A stretch of DNA of 9,666 nt. It comes from an uncultured Clostridia bacterium (GTDB lineage: Bacteria; Bacillota_A; Clostridia; TANB77; CAG-508). The stretch is taken from assembly GCA_947628465.1 (NCBI GenBank), contig CANQZZ010000044.1:1-9666 (forward strand), read 5' to 3'. Within the stretch, counting starts at the first letter, position 1. Each line of letters starts with the position of its first letter. Under the pieces are notes generated by a model. It saw nothing but the letters and a program-made list of their open reading frames with translations, did no database searches and was not told the DNA's origin. The position numbers and the translations under genes are program-made. This document shows positions 567 through 8,175 of this stretch, piece by piece.

Positions 567-645
567 AACTTAACCCATTGCTATTAAATAGTAATGCGGG
601 AGTCTAAAATGACATTGGAGAGTTCAAAAGCAACTCTCCTCTTTA
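567..645 (+). ncRNA. Putative small RNA, about 80 nt, convergent with the MazF-like gene
   Basis: The segment begins at the predicted start of the 532-560 promoter and ends at a hairpin with a short T-rich tail. It can form a first hairpin at 574-600 (CCC/GGG, a two-base CG bulge, then about seven more pairs) and a second 8-bp hairpin at 617-639. It has no plausible coding frame and I do not recognise the RNA family. Its 3' end meets, and slightly overlaps, the stop codon of the toxin-like gene on the other strand. It could act as an RNA partner of that gene, regulate elsewhere, or be an unused transcript. The call rests on promoter, folds and terminator only. Confidence 0.38.
617..644. terminator. 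Hairpin between convergent transcripts
   Basis: A perfect 8-bp stem, GGAGAGTT (617-624) with AACTCTCC (632-639), has a 7-base loop. Rightward it is followed by TCTTTATTT and would end the putative small RNA. Leftward it starts four bases after the stop of the MazF-like gene but its downstream T-content is weaker. It is probably a shared, modest terminator. Confidence 0.6.
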
Positions 646-1338
646 TTTGGTAAAAAACTTAATTATTTGTTCATCAATTAAATCAAGACTTTTGTTTGAT
701 AAACGTACATTTTTTAAAACGATATCATAAAATATTCTTTGTTTACTTATTGTAGTAATTTGATTAATTAAAACTATACTTTCTTTTTTATATTGATTAA
801 TACTTTTTCCTAATTGATCTATATATTTCATTTCTTTTGAAATAGATTCTTGTATAGATTTTGGTATTTCTTCCAAATCATCTAATTTAGTTAATAATTT
901 ATTTAATCTTTTATTTTCTTTTTGAATATTTTGATTAAGAATATTATAAAGCTCATTACTTAAATTTACACAAGACTTAGGATATTTTTTATTTTCCTTT
1001 TTCGATGTTAATGGTACAATATTCAACACTCCATTTTTGGGATTATCTTTTTTATTTAATACAACGCAATAATGTAATCCACCTAATTCACTACCTATGT
1101 TAAAACCTAGATTTACTTTTATTATATCTCCTCTATGAAATACGCCAGATTTAGTAACATCAAAATCTCTTTCTTGATCATGATAAACTGCGTAATCATG
1201 TATCCAATATGCTAATAATTCACTTTTTTTGTATTCGCTTAATTCTATATGTTTTAAAAAAGACAAATCTAATCTATTCAAAGATTTATCTTTATGAATA
1301 ATTGCATTGTTTTTTATTTCAATTTCATCTTCATTCAT
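643..1338 (-). CDS. MazF/PemK-family toxin-like protein with a helical insertion
   Basis: The 231-residue product carries the MazF/PemK signature in order: RGDIIKVNLG (69-78), NIGSELGGLHYCVVL (80-94), NIVPLTS (106-112), and near the C-terminus INQITTISKQRI (191-202). MazF-fold enzymes are usually ribosome-independent or ribosome-linked mRNA endonucleases of toxin-antitoxin modules. This one is about twice the usual length: it adds about 65 N-terminal residues and a charged, probably coiled-coil insertion at about 126-186. The Arg that follows the GG turn in classical MazF (GGxRP) is His here (GGLH), while the Thr of PLTS is kept, so nuclease activity is not assured. The ATG at 1338 is chosen over an upstream TTG because AAGGAG sits 8 bases before it. 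No antitoxin-like gene is adjacent; the only neighbour is the putative convergent RNA. Confidence 0.85.
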   Translation of the reverse strand: MNEDEIEIKNNAIIHKDKSLNRLDLSFLKHIELSEYKKSELLAYWIHDYAVYHDQERDFDVTKSGVFHRGDIIKVNLGFNIGSELGGLHYCVVLNKKDNPKNGVLNIVPLTSKKENKKYPKSCVNLSNELYNILNQNIQKENKRLNKLLTKLDDLEEIPKSIQESISKEMKYIDQLGKSINQYKKESIVLINQITTISKQRIFYDIVLKNVRLSNKSLDLIDEQIIKFFTK

Positions 1339-1555: not shown

Positions 1556-1598
1556 AAATGACACTATGTCGCATATTGTATGTGACATAGTGTCATTT
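1556..1598 (-). terminator. Large 18-bp hairpin, probable terminator of the surface operon
   Basis: Positions 1556-1573 pair with 1581-1598 in an 18-bp stem (one G-U) around a 7-base loop. Leftward it is followed by ATTTTAAC-type sequence, rightward by TTTGTTAATAT. It lies about 75 bases past the stop at 1674. Its length exceeds a usual terminator, so a cruciform or miniature element is possible. Structured DNA downstream of variable regions is known in DGRs, but there it sits within a few bases, not about 110. Confidence 0.6.
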
Positions 1599-1673: not shown

Positions 1674-2393
1674 TTACCTATTCCAAATAACAGGTCTAAA
1701 TGTAATTTCGCTATATTGGGCACCCGAAGCACGACCGCGATAGGGGGTGGAAAAGGTACCTACACCGTAACCGAACCAGCCTTGTCTTATTGAGATAGGA
1801 TAGTTCGGTTCAGTTGCTATATAATTCCAATCACTCGAAACTACTGAATCAGTTTCATAAAAAGCCATACCTAATGTGCTGTCTGCATTCCATGTTCCTG
1901 TATTTATATAATCTACAAAATCTGTGTCTCTATTATTATATAATGCTATTACATTTTCTTTTGCCGTTGATGTTTCATTATCATAAGCCTGTATTAATCC
2001 TGCTGTTTGTGTATACTTTGTAGCTTTTGGATTTGCTCCCCAATTCATTACTCCTGTTATATTTGGTGTTGTTGAATAGTATTCTACTCCTTCTATTTCA
2101 ACTGTGTTTCCTGTACCAATATTTTGTCCATTTGTTCCATATACACTATTTGCAAAGTATGATACTGCTCCCCAATCTTTATTTGTTGCTAAGTGTGGTT
2201 TTACTGTTGTGTTTACTAATGACTCTTCTCCTTGATTCATTTGTTGACATACTTCATACGATACTGTTGCTTTTATATTTACTATTGAGTCTGTTCCAGT
2301 TTTGCTTGGTGTTATATTTATTGCTGCATAGCTTGTGCTACATATTGCAACTATTATTAAAATTATCATTATACTTATTATTTTTTTTATCAT
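1674..2393 (-). CDS. Secreted C-type-lectin-like protein, probable DGR variable protein
   Basis: The product is about 239 residues, starting at the ATG at 2393: AAAGGA lies 10 bases upstream, whereas a GTG three codons earlier would be only 2 bases from it. Residues 1-24 form a Sec signal peptide (hydrophobic 5-18, then STSYAA). The mature part includes LATNKDWGAVSYFANSVYG (68-86), a pattern shared by formylglycine-generating-enzyme-like lectin-fold proteins of gut Clostridia, and ends in ITFRPVIW (230-237), resembling the FRP/FRV end of DGR target proteins. Residues 205-228 are coded by GC-rich, adenine-poor DNA quite unlike the rest. The gene follows the pilin-like gene on the same strand with no promoter between them. 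The likely role is surface ligand binding; the family assignment comes from remembered motifs, not from a search. Confidence 0.75.
   Translation of the reverse strand: MIKKIISIMIILIIVAICSTSYAAINITPSKTGTDSIVNIKATVSYEVCQQMNQGEESLVNTTVKPHLATNKDWGAVSYFANSVYGTNGQNIGTGNTVEIEGVEYYSTTPNITGVMNWGANPKATKYTQTAGLIQAYDNETSTAKENVIALYNNRDTDFVDYINTGTWNADSTLGMAFYETDSVVSSDWNYIATEPNYPISIRQGWFGYGVGTFSTPYRGRASGAQYSEITFRPVIWNR
1710..1781 (-). other. Putative variable region (VR) of a diversity-generating retroelement
   Basis: These 24 codons (residues 205-228) have 42 of 72 bases G or C and only 9 adenines on the coding strand, in a gene otherwise dominated by A-ending codons. Ten of the last 35 codons end in C (TTC, TAC, ACC, TCC, ACC, CCC, CGC, GCC among them). 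That is the pattern left when AAC/AAT codons of a template are mutated at adenines to NNC/NNT. It lies at the C-terminus just before a conserved FRPVI tail, where DGR variable regions sit. No reverse transcriptase, accessory protein or template repeat is in the window, so the call is inferred. Confidence 0.55.
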
Positions 2394-2489
2394 TTTTTTC
2401 ACTTTCCTTTCATTTGTTTTCTTTCTTTATTTTCTTCTTTTTTCTTTATTTTTATCTTTACCTTTTTCTTTATTTTTCTTTATATTTAT
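2394..2489 (-). other. Purine-rich spacer of the surface operon
   Basis: On the coding strand this spacer is almost only A and G and carries the AAAGGA ribosome site for the next gene. The distance from the upstream TGA to the downstream GTG is exactly 29 codons, so both genes share one frame. Read through, the spacer would be a Lys/Glu/Arg-rich linker interrupted by one TAA (2429-2427). It may be the remains of a linker or simply an A-rich leader. No promoter or terminator is seen in it. Confidence 0.4.
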
Positions 2490-4439
2490 TCAGTTTTTAC
2501 TTCTCCGACTTGGTTCATATTTACTTACCCATATTCCTTTTAAGTCGTTTCCAAAGGTTGGGTGTGGTATGTAACTACTTGGTAAGTCTCCTCCAGTAAA
2601 TGGTTTATTGTTTACATCTATAAATATTATTTTACTTGTTGTTCCTACTATTTCATATGCATACCTTGGTATCCATACCCACCAAGTTTCTGCGTTTGTT
2701 GCTGGATTTTTTATTTTTATGTTTGCATATATTCTTTTGTTATAGTCATACCATGTTCCTTTTAATTTATTTTTATCTATAATTGGATTTTTTACTATGT
2801 TATTTTCTATTGTACTTTCATTACTTAAAACGTCTTTTAGTGGTTGGTCTGTAAATTGTACTCCATCATATAGTTCTATATATGTATTGTTTATATCAAA
2901 TCCTTCTAAGTCTGGTTCATAGTATGTAGAATTTCCTGTGCTTACGTCTGGCAAAAGTACTGGTTCATATTTACTTACCCATATTCCTTTTAAATTACTT
3001 CCAAATGTTGGGTGTGGTATATATCCTGTTCCTAATTCTCCTCCTGTAAATGGTTTGTTGTTTGTGTCTATAAATACTATTGAACTTGTACTTCCTTCTA
3101 TTCTATATGCATACCTTGGTATCCATACCCACCAGCTTTCTGCTTTTGTTTCTGGATTTACTACTTTTATGTTTGCATATATTTTTTCTTCATAGTTATA
3201 CCAAGTTGCTTCTATCTTGTTTGATATTATTTCTGCTTCTTTTATTATTCCTTTTTCATCTATTGTACTGCTTTTAGCTAATATTTCTCTTAATGGTTGT
3301 TCTATAAATTTGTTGTTTTCTTTGTCGTATGATTCTATATATGTGTTGTCTGCATTAAATCCTTCTAAGTCTGGTATGTAATATGGAAAGTCTCCTGTAC
3401 TTATATTTGATACTTGTGTTGGTTCGTATTTGCTTACCCATATTCCTTTTAAATCGTTTCCAAATGTTGGGTGTGGTATATATCCTTCTTCTAGTTCTCC
3501 TCCACTTGCTTGTGCATTGTTTGTATCTATGAATATTATTGAGCTTTGTTTTGCTTCTGTATCTATTTTGTATGCATACCTTGGTATCCATACCCACCAA
3601 CTTTCTGTTCCTGTGTCTGGGTTCTCTACTTTTATGTTTGCCCATTTTTGTTTTTCATAGTTATAAAATTCATATGTTGTTCCATTTTTTTGTATTTCTC
3701 TTGGTTTTCCTTTTTTATAGTATTCTTCTGCTGATATTTCTTCTGTTTCTTCTCCGTTGTAATATACTAATGTTGTGTTTAGTGTATTAAATCCTGATAA
3801 GTCTGGTTCATAGTGTGATATGTTTCCTGTTTTTACTATTTTACTTTCTTCTTCTATTAAGTTTTCTATCGTTTCTTCTCTTGGTTCATTTTGTAATTCT
3901 TCTATACTGTGTACTACTCTAAAAACAATTCTTGTTTTTGCTACTTTGTATAATACATGTTCTTTTGTATCATATATATATGCTTCTTGCTCCCCATTTG
4001 CAAAACTTCCTTTTACATAGTATAGGTTTGGAATTATTCCCTCTTTATTTACTTGTTCTAATATTGAGTCTCCATTTTCTTTTGCATATTCTTTTGTTAT
4101 TTCGCTTATTCCTACTTTATATTTTCCCCAATATATAACTTCTTTTTTTAAGTCGTCATCCCACTCTAATGCTTCTTCTAATTTAACTTTTTTCCATGTT
4201 TTTTCTATTGTATTTTTTATTTTTTTATTCGATCTTTCTAATACTTCTTGTTCTTGTATTTTCCCTTTTATTTGCATCATTTCTTCCATAAATGCTGCTT
4301 TTCTTGCATTTGCTATGAGTCCATTTTCGTTAAATGCTACATTTACTGATACTCCTACTAGTATTAGCATTACTACTATTGTGATTATTAGTGCTATTAG
4401 AGTGATTCCTCTTTTTAGTCTTAAATTTTCTTTTGACAT
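2490..4439 (-). CDS. Pilin-like membrane-anchored surface protein with three tandem repeats
   Basis: The 649-residue protein starts at ATG 4439, six bases after AGAGGGAG. Residues 8-40 look like a type IV prepilin N-terminus: basic KR, then G11 before ITLIALIITIVVMLILVGVS, a cleavage-and-assembly helix. The usual Glu at position +5 of mature pilin is Ala here. Residues 50-210 form a charged, partly helical stalk. Then come three repeats (about 210-340, 353-493, 506-643), each running from a Y-x-P-D-L-x-G-F-N motif through WWVWIPRYAY, an FIDxNN segment and GYIPHPTFG to GIWVSKYEP. The WIPRYAY and GIWVSKYE motifs recall formylglycine-generating-enzyme/C-type-lectin proteins. The chain ends soon after the third GIWVSKYEP, without the EWGAVAYL...FRPV C-terminal half such proteins often have; the next gene encodes just such a domain. 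Probably displayed on the cell surface. Confidence 0.8.
   Translation of the reverse strand: MSKENLRLKRGITLIALIITIVVMLILVGVSVNVAFNENGLIANARKAAFMEEMMQIKGKIQEQEVLERSNKKIKNTIEKTWKKVKLEEALEWDDDLKKEVIYWGKYKVGISEITKEYAKENGDSILEQVNKEGIIPNLYYVKGSFANGEQEAYIYDTKEHVLYKVAKTRIVFRVVHSIEELQNEPREETIENLIEEESKIVKTGNISHYEPDLSGFNTLNTTLVYYNGEETEEISAEEYYKKGKPREIQKNGTTYEFYNYEKQKWANIKVENPDTGTESWWVWIPRYAYKIDTEAKQSSIIFIDTNNAQASGGELEEGYIPHPTFGNDLKGIWVSKYEPTQVSNISTGDFPYYIPDLEGFNADNTYIESYDKENNKFIEQPLREILAKSSTIDEKGIIKEAEIISNKIEATWYNYEEKIYANIKVVNPETKAESWWVWIPRYAYRIEGSTSSIVFIDTNNKPFTGGELGTGYIPHPTFGSNLKGIWVSKYEPVLLPDVSTGNSTYYEPDLEGFDINNTYIELYDGVQFTDQPLKDVLSNESTIENNIVKNPIIDKNKLKGTWYDYNKRIYANIKIKNPATNAETWWVWIPRYAYEIVGTTSKIIFIDVNNKPFTGGDLPSSYIPHPTFGNDLKGIWVSKYEPSRRSKN
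2511..3812 (-). repeat. Three tandem coding repeats of about 450 bp
   Basis: The codons for GIWVSKYEP recur at 2511, 2961 and about 3420, a spacing of 450 and 459 bases, and the PDLxGF codons recur near 2922, 3381 and 3812. The second and third repeats share more words (KPFTGG, STIxxxG-like spacers) than either does with the first, which suggests the most recent duplication was between them. Both spacings are multiples of three, so unit gain or loss keeps the frame. Confidence 0.85.
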
Positions 4440-4554: not shown

Positions 4555-4583
4555 ATAATACATCTTTCTTTTTTCTTTGTCAA
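4555..4583 (-). promoter_or_regulatory. Distal promoter candidate of the surface operon
   Basis: A perfect TTGACA on the minus strand (4583-4578), 17 bases, then TATTAT (4560-4555) predict a start near 4549 and an untranslated leader of about 110 bases. The 9-mer TATTGACAA holding this -35 box occurs twice here (complement of 4577-4585 and 4589-4597) and once on the other strand at the regulator promoter, so a shared binding site between divergent operons is possible. Confidence 0.5.
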
Positions 4584-4948: not shown

Positions 4949-6790
4949 ATGGTAGATTTAAAACTTGAAAATGATGAAGGGATAGTTAAACAAGCAAATG
5001 ATGTAGAAATGTATAAGGCAAATGATGTTTATGAGGAAATATATGAAATGTATTTAACTAATAAAAATTTAATTTGTTATTATGAAAAATCAAATGGATT
5101 ATTTGCTAAAAGTGAAGAAGTTACAGAAAAATTTCCATTAGAAAGCATAAGAATTGTTAACGATAAATTACAAATCTTTAAAGTGGATGATGATGAGAAT
5201 GGATTGGGCTTACAAATACTTTTTAAAAATGGAGAACGAGTACATTTTGTTTTTGAGAAAAAAAAGGAATTAGAAATTTGGTATAATGCTATTCTAGAAA
5301 CAATTACAGGGAAAAAAATTGAAGTAGATACTCCAAATAATAAAACTATAAAAAATGAAAACACAGTAGTTGGAAGTCTTTTAGGAGCTTTTCAAACTGT
5401 AAAAAATATTGCAAAAGACCAAATAGAAGAAGTAAAAGGAAAAATTGATGATGTAAAAGGTTCATTTATTGAAAATGAAGAAAATGATACAATATCAGAT
5501 AATATAGGTGAAGAAGAACAAAAAGAAGTAGAAAATAATAAGCTAATTAATAACAAAGAACAAGAAGATGTAAAAAAAGCAAATGGTATCAAAGAAGATA
5601 ATGCTATATATTGCAGAAATTGTGGAGCAAAATTAATGCCAAATTCAAAATTTTGTAATCATTGCGGAACATCTCTTGAAAATATAGAAAATGAAGTCAA
5701 AGATATTGAACAAAAAGTTGTTAAAGAAAAAAATGTTGAAGAAAAAGCTGATGTAGAAAATACGAAAAATGAAATAAAAGAAGAAATAATAACAAAACGA
5801 GAAAATGTTTATGATGGAAAAATTCATAAATGTCCAAATTGTGGAGAAGTATTAGATTCATTCGTAGCAAAATGTCCTTCTTGTGGATTTGAATTAAGTA
5901 GACAAGAAATTGCAGAATCTTTAAAAGACTTCATAAATAAAATAAATAAATGTGATGAGGAAATTGCAAGCAATAATCATACTAAAACAGGTTGGTCATC
6001 TTGGAGTAGTTCTAAAAAAATTATGTGGATAATACTTAATATTTTCTTTGTATGTATTCCATTGGTTATATACTTTGTGTTACCATTAGTTTTAATAAAT
6101 AAAACTCCAAAACTAAGTAAAGAAGAAAGACAAATGGCAAATCTAATTGAAAATTTTCCATTTCCAAATGATAGAGAGTCAATTTTAGCAGCATTGGTTT
6201 TTGCAAAAGAAAAAGTAAATTTTTTATCCAATGCAAATATTAATAGGAAATCTGCTTATTGGTTAAGACTATGGTCTACAAAAGCAGTGCAATTAAAACA
6301 AAAAGCAGATATGCTATTCCCAAATGACCCTATTGTAAAGAAAAGTTATGATGACTTAGTAAATGGTGAGAAAAAAGCAGACAAAATATTGAAAACCAAA
6401 TTATTCATAGGTATTATACTATTGATATTAGCAGTGATATTTTTAATATTTCTTTATAATAGTACAAATACAAGTACAGATAAAAAAGATTATAATGCAA
6501 CATTTGAATGGCAAACAAATGGAATATTTGCAAAACTTCCAGAACCTGAAACAGATAATGGAAAAATCACTATAGAAATGGAAAAACAACTTCAAATTGA
6601 ACTATATAATATTTCTTATAACCAATTTGAAGAATATGTAAAAGAATGTAAAGACAATGGCTTTACATATGATGTAAAAAAATTTAATAACTCTTTTAAT
6701 GCAAAAGATAAGGATAATTATAGTTTAAATATAAACTATAAGGATGAAAGTCAAGTAATGACAATTTATCTTGTTTGTTATGATATATAA
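4949..6790 (+). CDS. Membrane protein with PH-like N-terminus, two zinc ribbons and a DUF6591-like C-terminus
   Basis: The product has 613 residues. Residues about 25-120 look like a PH/GRAM-type beta domain ending in an amphipathic helix (KKELEIWYNAILETI). A charged coiled-coil linker follows (about 145-215). Zinc ribbon 1 uses C222/C225 and C236/C239; zinc ribbon 2 uses C295/C298 and C309/C312. Two membrane segments lie at about 358-383 and 484-503, enclosing about 100 probably cytoplasmic residues. The last 100 residues (F-E-W-Q-T-N-G-I-F-A-K-L-P then YVKECKDNGFTYD) resemble the extracellular domain I know as DUF6591. The ribosome site AAGGGGG lies 6 bases before the ATG. The architecture parallels B. 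subtilis YdjG, a zinc-ribbon membrane partner of the SPFH protein YdjI and of PspA, which fits the next gene. Function is otherwise unknown. Confidence 0.72.
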   Translation: MVDLKLENDEGIVKQANDVEMYKANDVYEEIYEMYLTNKNLICYYEKSNGLFAKSEEVTEKFPLESIRIVNDKLQIFKVDDDENGLGLQILFKNGERVHFVFEKKKELEIWYNAILETITGKKIEVDTPNNKTIKNENTVVGSLLGAFQTVKNIAKDQIEEVKGKIDDVKGSFIENEENDTISDNIGEEEQKEVENNKLINNKEQEDVKKANGIKEDNAIYCRNCGAKLMPNSKFCNHCGTSLENIENEVKDIEQKVVKEKNVEEKADVENTKNEIKEEIITKRENVYDGKIHKCPNCGEVLDSFVAKCPSCGFELSRQEIAESLKDFINKINKCDEEIASNNHTKTGWSSWSSSKKIMWIILNIFFVCIPLVIYFVLPLVLINKTPKLSKEERQMANLIENFPFPNDRESILAALVFAKEKVNFLSNANINRKSAYWLRLWSTKAVQLKQKADMLFPNDPIVKKSYDDLVNGEKKADKILKTKLFIGIILLILAVIFLIFLYNSTNTSTDKKDYNATFEWQTNGIFAKLPEPETDNGKITIEMEKQLQIELYNISYNQFEEYVKECKDNGFTYDVKKFNNSFNAKDKDNYSLNINYKDESQVMTIYLVCYDI

Positions 6791-6816
6791 AAATTAAATA
6801 GAAAGGATTGATTTTT

Positions 6817-8175
6817 ATGGGATTATTTAATCAAAAGAATAATGGAGGAGTATTAAATGAAATAAGATGTGATGAACAATCATATCTTATATGGAAATGG
6901 CATCCAAATGGAACACAAGAAGGAGATAATACTAGAGAAAACGCAATACGTTGGGGATCTGTATTAAGAGTAAAAGATGGAGAAGTTGCAGTTTTTGTAT
7001 ATAAACAAAAAAATGGAACCATGCAAGATTTCATTGTTGGACCTTTTGATCAAACAATAAAAACAGCCAACTTTCCTGTATTATCAAGTATTATAGGATT
7101 AGCTTATGATGGTGGAACACCATTTCAAGCAGAAATTTATTTTATAAATCTTGCACACCTAATTCAAACTAAGTTCGCAGTACCATTTTTTGATGTATAT
7201 GACCCTAGATTTGAAGATTTTGGGGTACCTGTTGCAATTAGAGGGTCAATAAATTTTAAGATAACAGATTATAAAGAATTTGTAAAATTACATAAACTTA
7301 ATACATTTAAACTTGAAGAATTTCAAGCACAAGTTCGTGATGCAGTATCTAGATATGTAAAAGATGTAATTGCTAATGTACCTGCTAAAAATAATATTCC
7401 ATTAGTCCAAATTGAAACAAAAACAGCTCAAATAAATGATGAAATTGAAATATATATAAAAGATAGATTTAGAGAAAATTTTGGAGTTGATGTTTCAGGA
7501 GTAGATTTGTCAGCAATAGAAGTAGATAAGACTAGTGAAGGATATAAGGAATTGATGAGTGTTACTAAAGATGTAGCAGGTGCTATTAAAAAAGCAGAAG
7601 TAGAGGCAAAATTAAAAGACATTGAAGGTAATCAAAGAATTGAAATGGAAAACAAAGAAGAAACTCTTAGAATACAAAGGGAAGAAGGACAATATGCTAT
7701 GCATAAAAAGACTCAATCTGATAATATAGGAGCATTTCAAATTGAAAAGCAAACAGAAGTTGGCGTTGCAGGTGCAAATGCATTAGGCAAAATGGGAGAA
7801 AATGGTGCAGGAAATGTTAATTTGTCAGGTGGTAGTGGAGATGGATTTAATCTAGCAGCAATGATGGCAAGTATGGCAGTTGGTGGTGCTGTTGGTCAAA
7901 ATATAGCAGGTTCAATGAATAATATGATGTCAGGAATAAATAATCCACCTCAAACTGAAAAGCCACCAGTTATTCCAACAGAAGAATATTACCTAGCAGT
8001 TGATGGAAAGCCAACAGGTCCATATAGTATAGAAAAATTAAAAGAGATGATTATATCTGGACAATTAACATCTTCTAGTTTATTATGGAAAAAAGGAATG
8101 AAAGAATGGGTAAAAGCAAACACAATAGAAGGATTAAAAGAAGAATTTATGCCACCTGTTCCACCAAGTAATTAA
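6817..8175 (+). CDS. SPFH-domain (YdjI/virion-core-like) protein with C-terminal GYF_2 domain
   Basis: The product has 452 residues from the ATG at 6817, chosen over a TTG at 6808 because AAAGG lies 10 bases before it. Residues about 20-250 form the SPFH region of the YdjI type: IWKWHPNG, RWGSVLRVKDGEVAVFVYKQ, PFFDVYDPRFEDFGVPVAIR, then a beta-rich stretch and a charged helix. SPFH proteins assemble as rings or patches on membranes; YdjI acts with PspA and YdjG in envelope stress. After a Lys/Glu helix (about 250-310) comes a Gly/Ala/Met-rich segment (311-372), then a GYF_2 domain (about 389-443: YYLAVDGKPTGPYS, LLWKKGMKEWVKA), which in other proteins binds proline-rich peptides. Family members often end in a zinc ribbon instead; here the ribbons sit in the upstream partner, 26 bases away in the same operon. 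Confidence 0.88.
   Translation: MGLFNQKNNGGVLNEIRCDEQSYLIWKWHPNGTQEGDNTRENAIRWGSVLRVKDGEVAVFVYKQKNGTMQDFIVGPFDQTIKTANFPVLSSIIGLAYDGGTPFQAEIYFINLAHLIQTKFAVPFFDVYDPRFEDFGVPVAIRGSINFKITDYKEFVKLHKLNTFKLEEFQAQVRDAVSRYVKDVIANVPAKNNIPLVQIETKTAQINDEIEIYIKDRFRENFGVDVSGVDLSAIEVDKTSEGYKELMSVTKDVAGAIKKAEVEAKLKDIEGNQRIEMENKEETLRIQREEGQYAMHKKTQSDNIGAFQIEKQTEVGVAGANALGKMGENGAGNVNLSGGSGDGFNLAAMMASMAVGGAVGQNIAGSMNNMMSGINNPPQTEKPPVIPTEEYYLAVDGKPTGPYSIEKLKEMIISGQLTSSSLLWKKGMKEWVKANTIEGLKEEFMPPVPPSN

Follow-up and report, generated by a model that had tools for sequence, protein, structure and literature searches.

Why do 24 consecutive codons near the 3′ end of one gene differ so sharply in composition from everything around them? 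The gene (1674..2402, minus strand) lies on a 9,666-nucleotide (nt) stretch of DNA from an uncultured Clostridia bacterium (contig CANQZZ010000044.1; hereafter the window), and the codons occupy 1710..1781. The original prediction, made from the letters of the window alone, had taken them for the variable region (VR) of a diversity-generating retroelement (DGR). We find this prediction supported in part: very probably these codons are the VR of a DGR-type target whose cassette is remote or lost, and their rewriting was probably recent. Under this reading, the template repeat (TR), which is rich in AAC codons, would be copied into RNA, and this RNA reverse-transcribed by the DGR reverse transcriptase (RT) together with Avd, with errors arising at template adenines; the complementary DNA would then replace the VR of the target gene, and the variable loop of the lectin-fold product would form the binding face. 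The traces of these steps come from sequence comparison of cassettes in relatives, read with the established DGR mechanism, and we infer the same steps for the window.

Composition and variability at the 3′ end of the target gene

The target open reading frame (ORF) was defined by ORF calling, by its relatives and by a structure model. It has 242 codons, encoding an N-terminal hydrophobic helix, a lectin-like framework, the VR (codons 208-231, minus strand) and a constant tail. The helix would serve as a signal or anchor, and the protein is probably secreted. Translation probably starts at the ATG at 2391-2393 rather than at the GTG at 2400-2402, because the nearest relative, P0001, begins at the equivalent ATG.

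As the original prediction had described, the VR is rich in G+C and poor in adenine. Its G+C content is 0.583, with 9 adenines in 72 positions, against 0.336 and 305 of 729 for the whole gene and a G+C content of 0.285 for the window. No other 72-nt stretch across the 9,666 bases has a higher G+C content, and the value lies 4.9 standard deviations (s.d.) above the other coding DNA (2472 codon-stepped 72-nt segments; mean 0.290, s.d. 0.059, maximum 0.472). The described switch in codon endings is present too: third positions of residues 1-207 are A120 T56 G17 C14 and those of residues 208-231 are C10 T10 G2 A2, so that 20 of the 24 VR codons end in a pyrimidine (NNY). At the nine hypervariable columns of the family alignment (residues 213-224) the window codons are NNY in 9/9 cases, compared with 70/206 upstream (binomial P = 6e-5).

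The window protein has 191 relatives by protein search. The family counts rest on the 120 that were listed, and the alignment holds 126 rows (these 120, the window and five loci). Its hypervariable stretch coincides with 1710-1781 and has its core at about codons 213-224. Mean entropy is 1.26 bits in the framework, 2.79 in the VR and 0.56 in the tail TFRPVIWN. Variation is concentrated in the same codons when close pairs are compared: P0075 and P0081 differ at 1/204 positions outside the VR and at 11/26 inside, P0075 and P0087 at 4/204 and 8/26, and an excess of VR change was seen in nine of ten chosen close pairs, P0045/P0071 being the exception. The window protein differs from P0001 at 25/195 positions outside the VR and at 12/26 inside. 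Because the VR has changed far more than the framework in this last comparison, it was probably rewritten recently. Lysine, glutamate, glutamine, methionine and tryptophan, which NNY codons cannot encode, make up 76 of 1014 residues in columns of the hypervariable set, compared with 1138 of 5569 in framework columns that vary.

The constant tail (EITFRPVIWNR; 1677..1709, minus strand), identified by alignment, is in frame with the VR in the window and contributes the final strands of the structure model. A first structure model, built from 51 sequences, gave weak matches; the predicted structure has the C-type lectin fold that had been proposed for the target. The Thermus aquaticus DGR variable protein TaqVP (5vf4; 380 residues), which we take not to be encoded in a pilin-like operon, shares 13% identity with it.

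An assembly chimera or a chance run of bases could also produce an aberrant segment, and VRs may well be hard to assemble from mixed strains. A contrast of 4.9 s.d. speaks against both, however, and the VR leads in frame into a tail that 112 of the 120 listed relatives carry. Around the loop, moreover, the window and P0001 share the motifs QGWFG, VG and SGAQYS. We give this explanation next to no credence.

Cassettes in relatives and the search around the window

The family alignment, used as a query, located nine genome loci, all labelled Clostridia, and further searches added more (L156 duplicates the gene of L006 and was left out of the counts). It found no viral locus. The single protein, used as the query, matched nothing in genome or viral contigs, and phage and plasmid records gave no match. 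Neither the target nor its neighbouring partner gene, described below, had a Pfam or NCBIfam family above cut-off, and PHROGs returned nothing meaningful.

Among the relatives' loci, L008, L105, L107 and L112 contain a DGR-type RT. In L008 the gene order is pilin-like partner, target, template, Avd and RT; the RT carries IGNYTSQ and YMDD, and Avd (NF033474/PF22296) reaches a score of 93.6, the cut-off being 80. The template is 56 nt long and differs from the VR at nine positions, every one a template adenine. L105 and L112 share this layout (L105 starts within the target gene, so that a partner would be out of view), and 8/8 mismatches in each fall on template adenines, although the gapped alignments behind these counts are scored in a way that favours such changes, and a gap could mask a difference. 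A fourth cassette, L107, is more distant, and all four RTs carry IGNYTSQ. For the relatives these template-VR pairs document a DGR variable region; for the window we infer one with high confidence.

The relatives resemble the BPP-1 type of DGR in having a TR with adenine-only VR substitutions, an Avd, an IGNYTSQ RT and a target with a predicted lectin fold, whereas the window carries the target only. They differ from that type in their short TRs (56, 70 and 55 nt, and about 106 in L107), which rest on AAC arrays, and in a VR that is shorter than the TR in three of the four cassettes. A constant tail follows the VR in the window, L008 and L105, and the VR ends the gene in L107. To the known systems the family adds a set of DGR targets from uncultured Clostridia that have a lectin fold, occur with a pilin-like partner and bear no Pfam or NCBIfam name; several members come from animal guts according to their records.

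DGR-type RTs occur in seven of the first nine genomes (G002 and G004-G008, plus a truncated one in G003), and some of them serve other targets. Further DGRs with ungapped TR/VR pairs of 114-124 nt lie in L041 (G002), L035 (G005), L036 (G004) and L038 (G007), the target in L041 being itself pilin-like and carrying a VR of its own. L017 (3-1995, G003) holds a different lectin-like gene, an Avd-like ORF and a truncated RT with LGNYTSQ. Genome G173 has nine target copies over several contigs, with a cassette beside some only.

Several results weigh against assigning the window's segment to a DGR. In the window, tblastn found no RT or Avd, and neither a repeat search nor an adenine-tolerant scan, which also missed the degenerate template of L004, found a template. 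In the three nearest genomes available (G001, G002 and G003), BLAST searches with the VR recovered no template of the family's target; the best other matches (E 0.16 in G001, none up to E 1 in G002, E 0.07 in G003) did not cover a VR-like stretch. As a local control, the VR query recovered the template in 4/4 intact cassettes (E <= 0.002), while that of L004, which has decayed, was detected at E 0.023. G001, a relative's genome with a family target, has no DGR-type RT; its sole RT is of the QGGNLSP type, which we take to be group II-like. G002 has one DGR-type RT, serving another gene. The L008 target shares just 29% identity with the window protein, and the adenine counts of L105 and L112 depend on gapped alignment. 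Nor is the compositional signature general: VR G+C ranges from 0.37 to 0.65 among 27 targets, a crude NNY excess reaches P < 0.05 in 12 of the 25 testable ones, L008 not among them, and the residues that NNY cannot encode are lowered yet still present in the hypervariable columns. Foldseek alone, run on the target model, returned nothing significant (best E 1.1).

Searching G001-G009 with a pattern of the conserved VR flanks returned the L008 template and the targets of three genomes (G004, G005 and G008), and nothing else. We also tried AACAACAACAAC as a template finder and rejected it: it occurs in 15/15 genomes, and because its 62 occurrences compare with 43 for a reversed control, it is unable to find templates by itself.

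Because no cassette was found beside the gene, we regard the window target as one that depends on a remote cassette or was left behind after cassette loss. In the first case, which is what the original prediction had proposed, it would belong with the DGRs with remote targets mentioned in PMC8144416, although no RT or TR for it was located in our searches of the window and of G001-G003. That source states that surveys starting from the RT miss remote targets; targets without an adjacent cassette, such as those described here, escape RT-based surveys.

The second case raises the possibility that the VR is a fossil, written once by a DGR whose cassette was then lost, the gene now being fixed or drifting. 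That stage is exemplified by L004 (decaying DGR at 3475-4240), where the neighbours are as in L008, the target is open, the template is degenerate, the RT lacks its middle and Avd was not found. The sequence of L004 is that of a decaying DGR whose target is outliving its cassette, and because of this a fossil VR is possible in the window as well. Decayed DGRs appear in the DiGReF survey (PMC3521204), and L004 likewise keeps the target with TR and RT remnants; in the portion of that survey available, the inactivated RTs have intact repeats, whereas in L004 the TR has drifted and Avd was not found. The window without a cassette, G001 with a target and neither DGR-type RT nor template, and G003 with its truncated RT all fit such loss. 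Against it, the comparison with P0001 suggests that rewriting continued after the two genes split, and the NNY signature persists in the VR codons. Assemblies presumably tend to break at such repeats, which would make the absence of a cassette weak evidence. We entertain a fossil VR only tentatively; it is compatible with the favoured reading of the segment as a DGR-written VR, and the two part on present activity.

Length and frame changes in the variable region

Among tail-bearing pairs whose frameworks are at least 85% identical (n = 71), VR length differs in 53 and framework length in 22. The corresponding figures are 27 and 6 at 90% identity (n = 33) and 5 and 0 at 95% (n = 6), and without the tail filter VR length differs in 86 of 110 pairs at 85%. 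In the cassettes, the VR is shorter than its template by 13 nt (L105), 6 nt (L112) and 3 nt (L107) and equal to it in L008, and the length differences sit in or next to the AAC array.

Adenine substitution alone does not yield such differences among close alleles, which would fit recombination between paralogues under diversifying selection, the G+C contrast being imported and no DGR being involved. The lack of a TR for the window and the several target copies in some genomes, as in G173, point the same way. Such recombination would leave unexplained, however, the adenine-only substitutions in the relatives' cassettes; it is also opposed by the step in G+C from 0.33 in the window's framework to 0.56 in its VR, and by the NNY bias with depletion of the five residues, which are consistent with AAY templates. 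We consider this alternative improbable and retain the DGR as the source of the variation.

The constant tail is out of frame in 8 of the 27 targets with DNA, whose open 5′ parts span 94-212 codons. The eight are L007 and seven of the eleven targets in G173, G104 and G088. Two of six further targets are out of frame as well, and another of the six, L160, runs straight into template-like sequence. There (L160 1950-2420, G467) the target lacks the constant tail and joins the template-like sequence, with Avd and RT downstream, reflecting either VR-TR recombination or assembly collapse. The frame breaks within the VR, or just ahead of it in two cases (the first copy on C41 of G173, and L162). At the protein level the tail is missing in 16 of 24 database matches to the G104 target, itself included and P0142 (ending YRPTIWN) counted as tail-bearing, some of these being the same genes as the loci. 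It is missing in 8 of the 120 listed relatives of the window protein, and several tail-less proteins finish with the tail sequence read in a shifted frame. Contig ends may cut some of these genes, and mixed-strain assembly could create false frames.

An AAC-array template might let the RT lose or gain units, changing the size of the loop and, whenever the change is not a multiple of three, losing the frame of the tail, so that retrohoming would act as an on/off switch for an adhesin, a form of phase variation driven by a retroelement. We think this rather unlikely, in part because partner genes in G173 are also split, and the frame breaks there are for the same reason not limited to the VR. 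These three partner genes (L099 303-2355, L101 6425-8534 and L104 636-2199) are divided at the same place into two frames that overlap by about 44 nt. The three partners, all with the N terminus present, consist of a pilin-like frame of about 160 amino acids (aa) and a longer repeat frame, and may represent a coupled pair of genes, a frameshift or a programmed shift of frame; the partner gene of L112 (G104) is intact.

Dinucleotide tracts of 12-17 units, (AG)13-17 or (AC)12, lie 211-287 nt ahead of the frame for the partner's pilin-like N terminus in G173 and G104 (L099 1-26, L101 6185-6214, L104 338-371 and L112 1995-2018). They are possible phase-variation tracts and may add a second switch upstream of the operon in this subclade. 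No tract of at least 18 nt was found in the window or in the other 21 of the 26 loci scanned; L105 shows only its CAA template array.

Indels in AAC repeats, in threes, had been posited earlier, and PMC12875486, in the part accessible, credits its reference 16. The open-access text searched held no mention of frame loss in a DGR VR. If it is true that retrohoming itself causes frame loss, a single DGR step would both diversify the target and switch it on or off. DiGReF (PMC3521204) and DGRscan (PMC4159848), as far as their accessible text describes them, find templates by seeding without indels, and length-variable VRs would tend to evade template finding of that style.

The partner gene and neighbouring features

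Just upstream of the target lies the partner gene (2490..4439, minus strand; 649 aa), defined by its ORF, its repeats and conserved gene order. In line with the pilin-like partner that had been proposed, the protein has a putatively pilin-like N terminus (GITLIALIITIVVMLILVG), and it carries three repeats of about 150 aa in which the motifs WWVWIPRYAY and GIWVSKYEP occur. By eye, the hydrophobic N terminus resembles that of type IV pilins, while the Pfam prepilin motif N_methyl (PF07963) matches at E 0.14 and 12.2 bits, under the cut-off of 21.2. Partners with WxWIP repeats stand upstream of 21 of the 27 targets, the window's included; 11 of them have the pilin-like N terminus in the same frame, 4 have it in a separate frame that overlaps, and in the other 6 it was not matched. 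Given this conserved gene order, display of the target together with the partner, or on it, is probable, and a pilin-displayed receptor is plausible.

A promoter-like site (TTGACA-17-TATTAT; 4555..4583, minus strand) upstream of the partner gene is a consensus match, in a region where 17 such sites were found and 19.4 were expected from shuffles. Between the target and the next gene is a strong stem-loop (1556..1598, minus strand; -17.4 kcal/mol, z -7.7). We considered it as a DGR hairpin and rejected this: it is probably a terminator and not a DGR element, because three cassette-bearing relatives have no comparable fold and L001 has a similar hairpin. Further downstream of the target are a gene for a PemK/MazF-like domain with a long C-terminal extension (643-1332, minus strand; domain match) and two tRNA-Gly genes. 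On the plus strand, two adjacent genes at 4949-8175, assigned from domain matches, encode a zinc-ribbon/DUF6591 protein with weak PH similarity and an SPFH (Band 7) protein with a terminal GYF domain.
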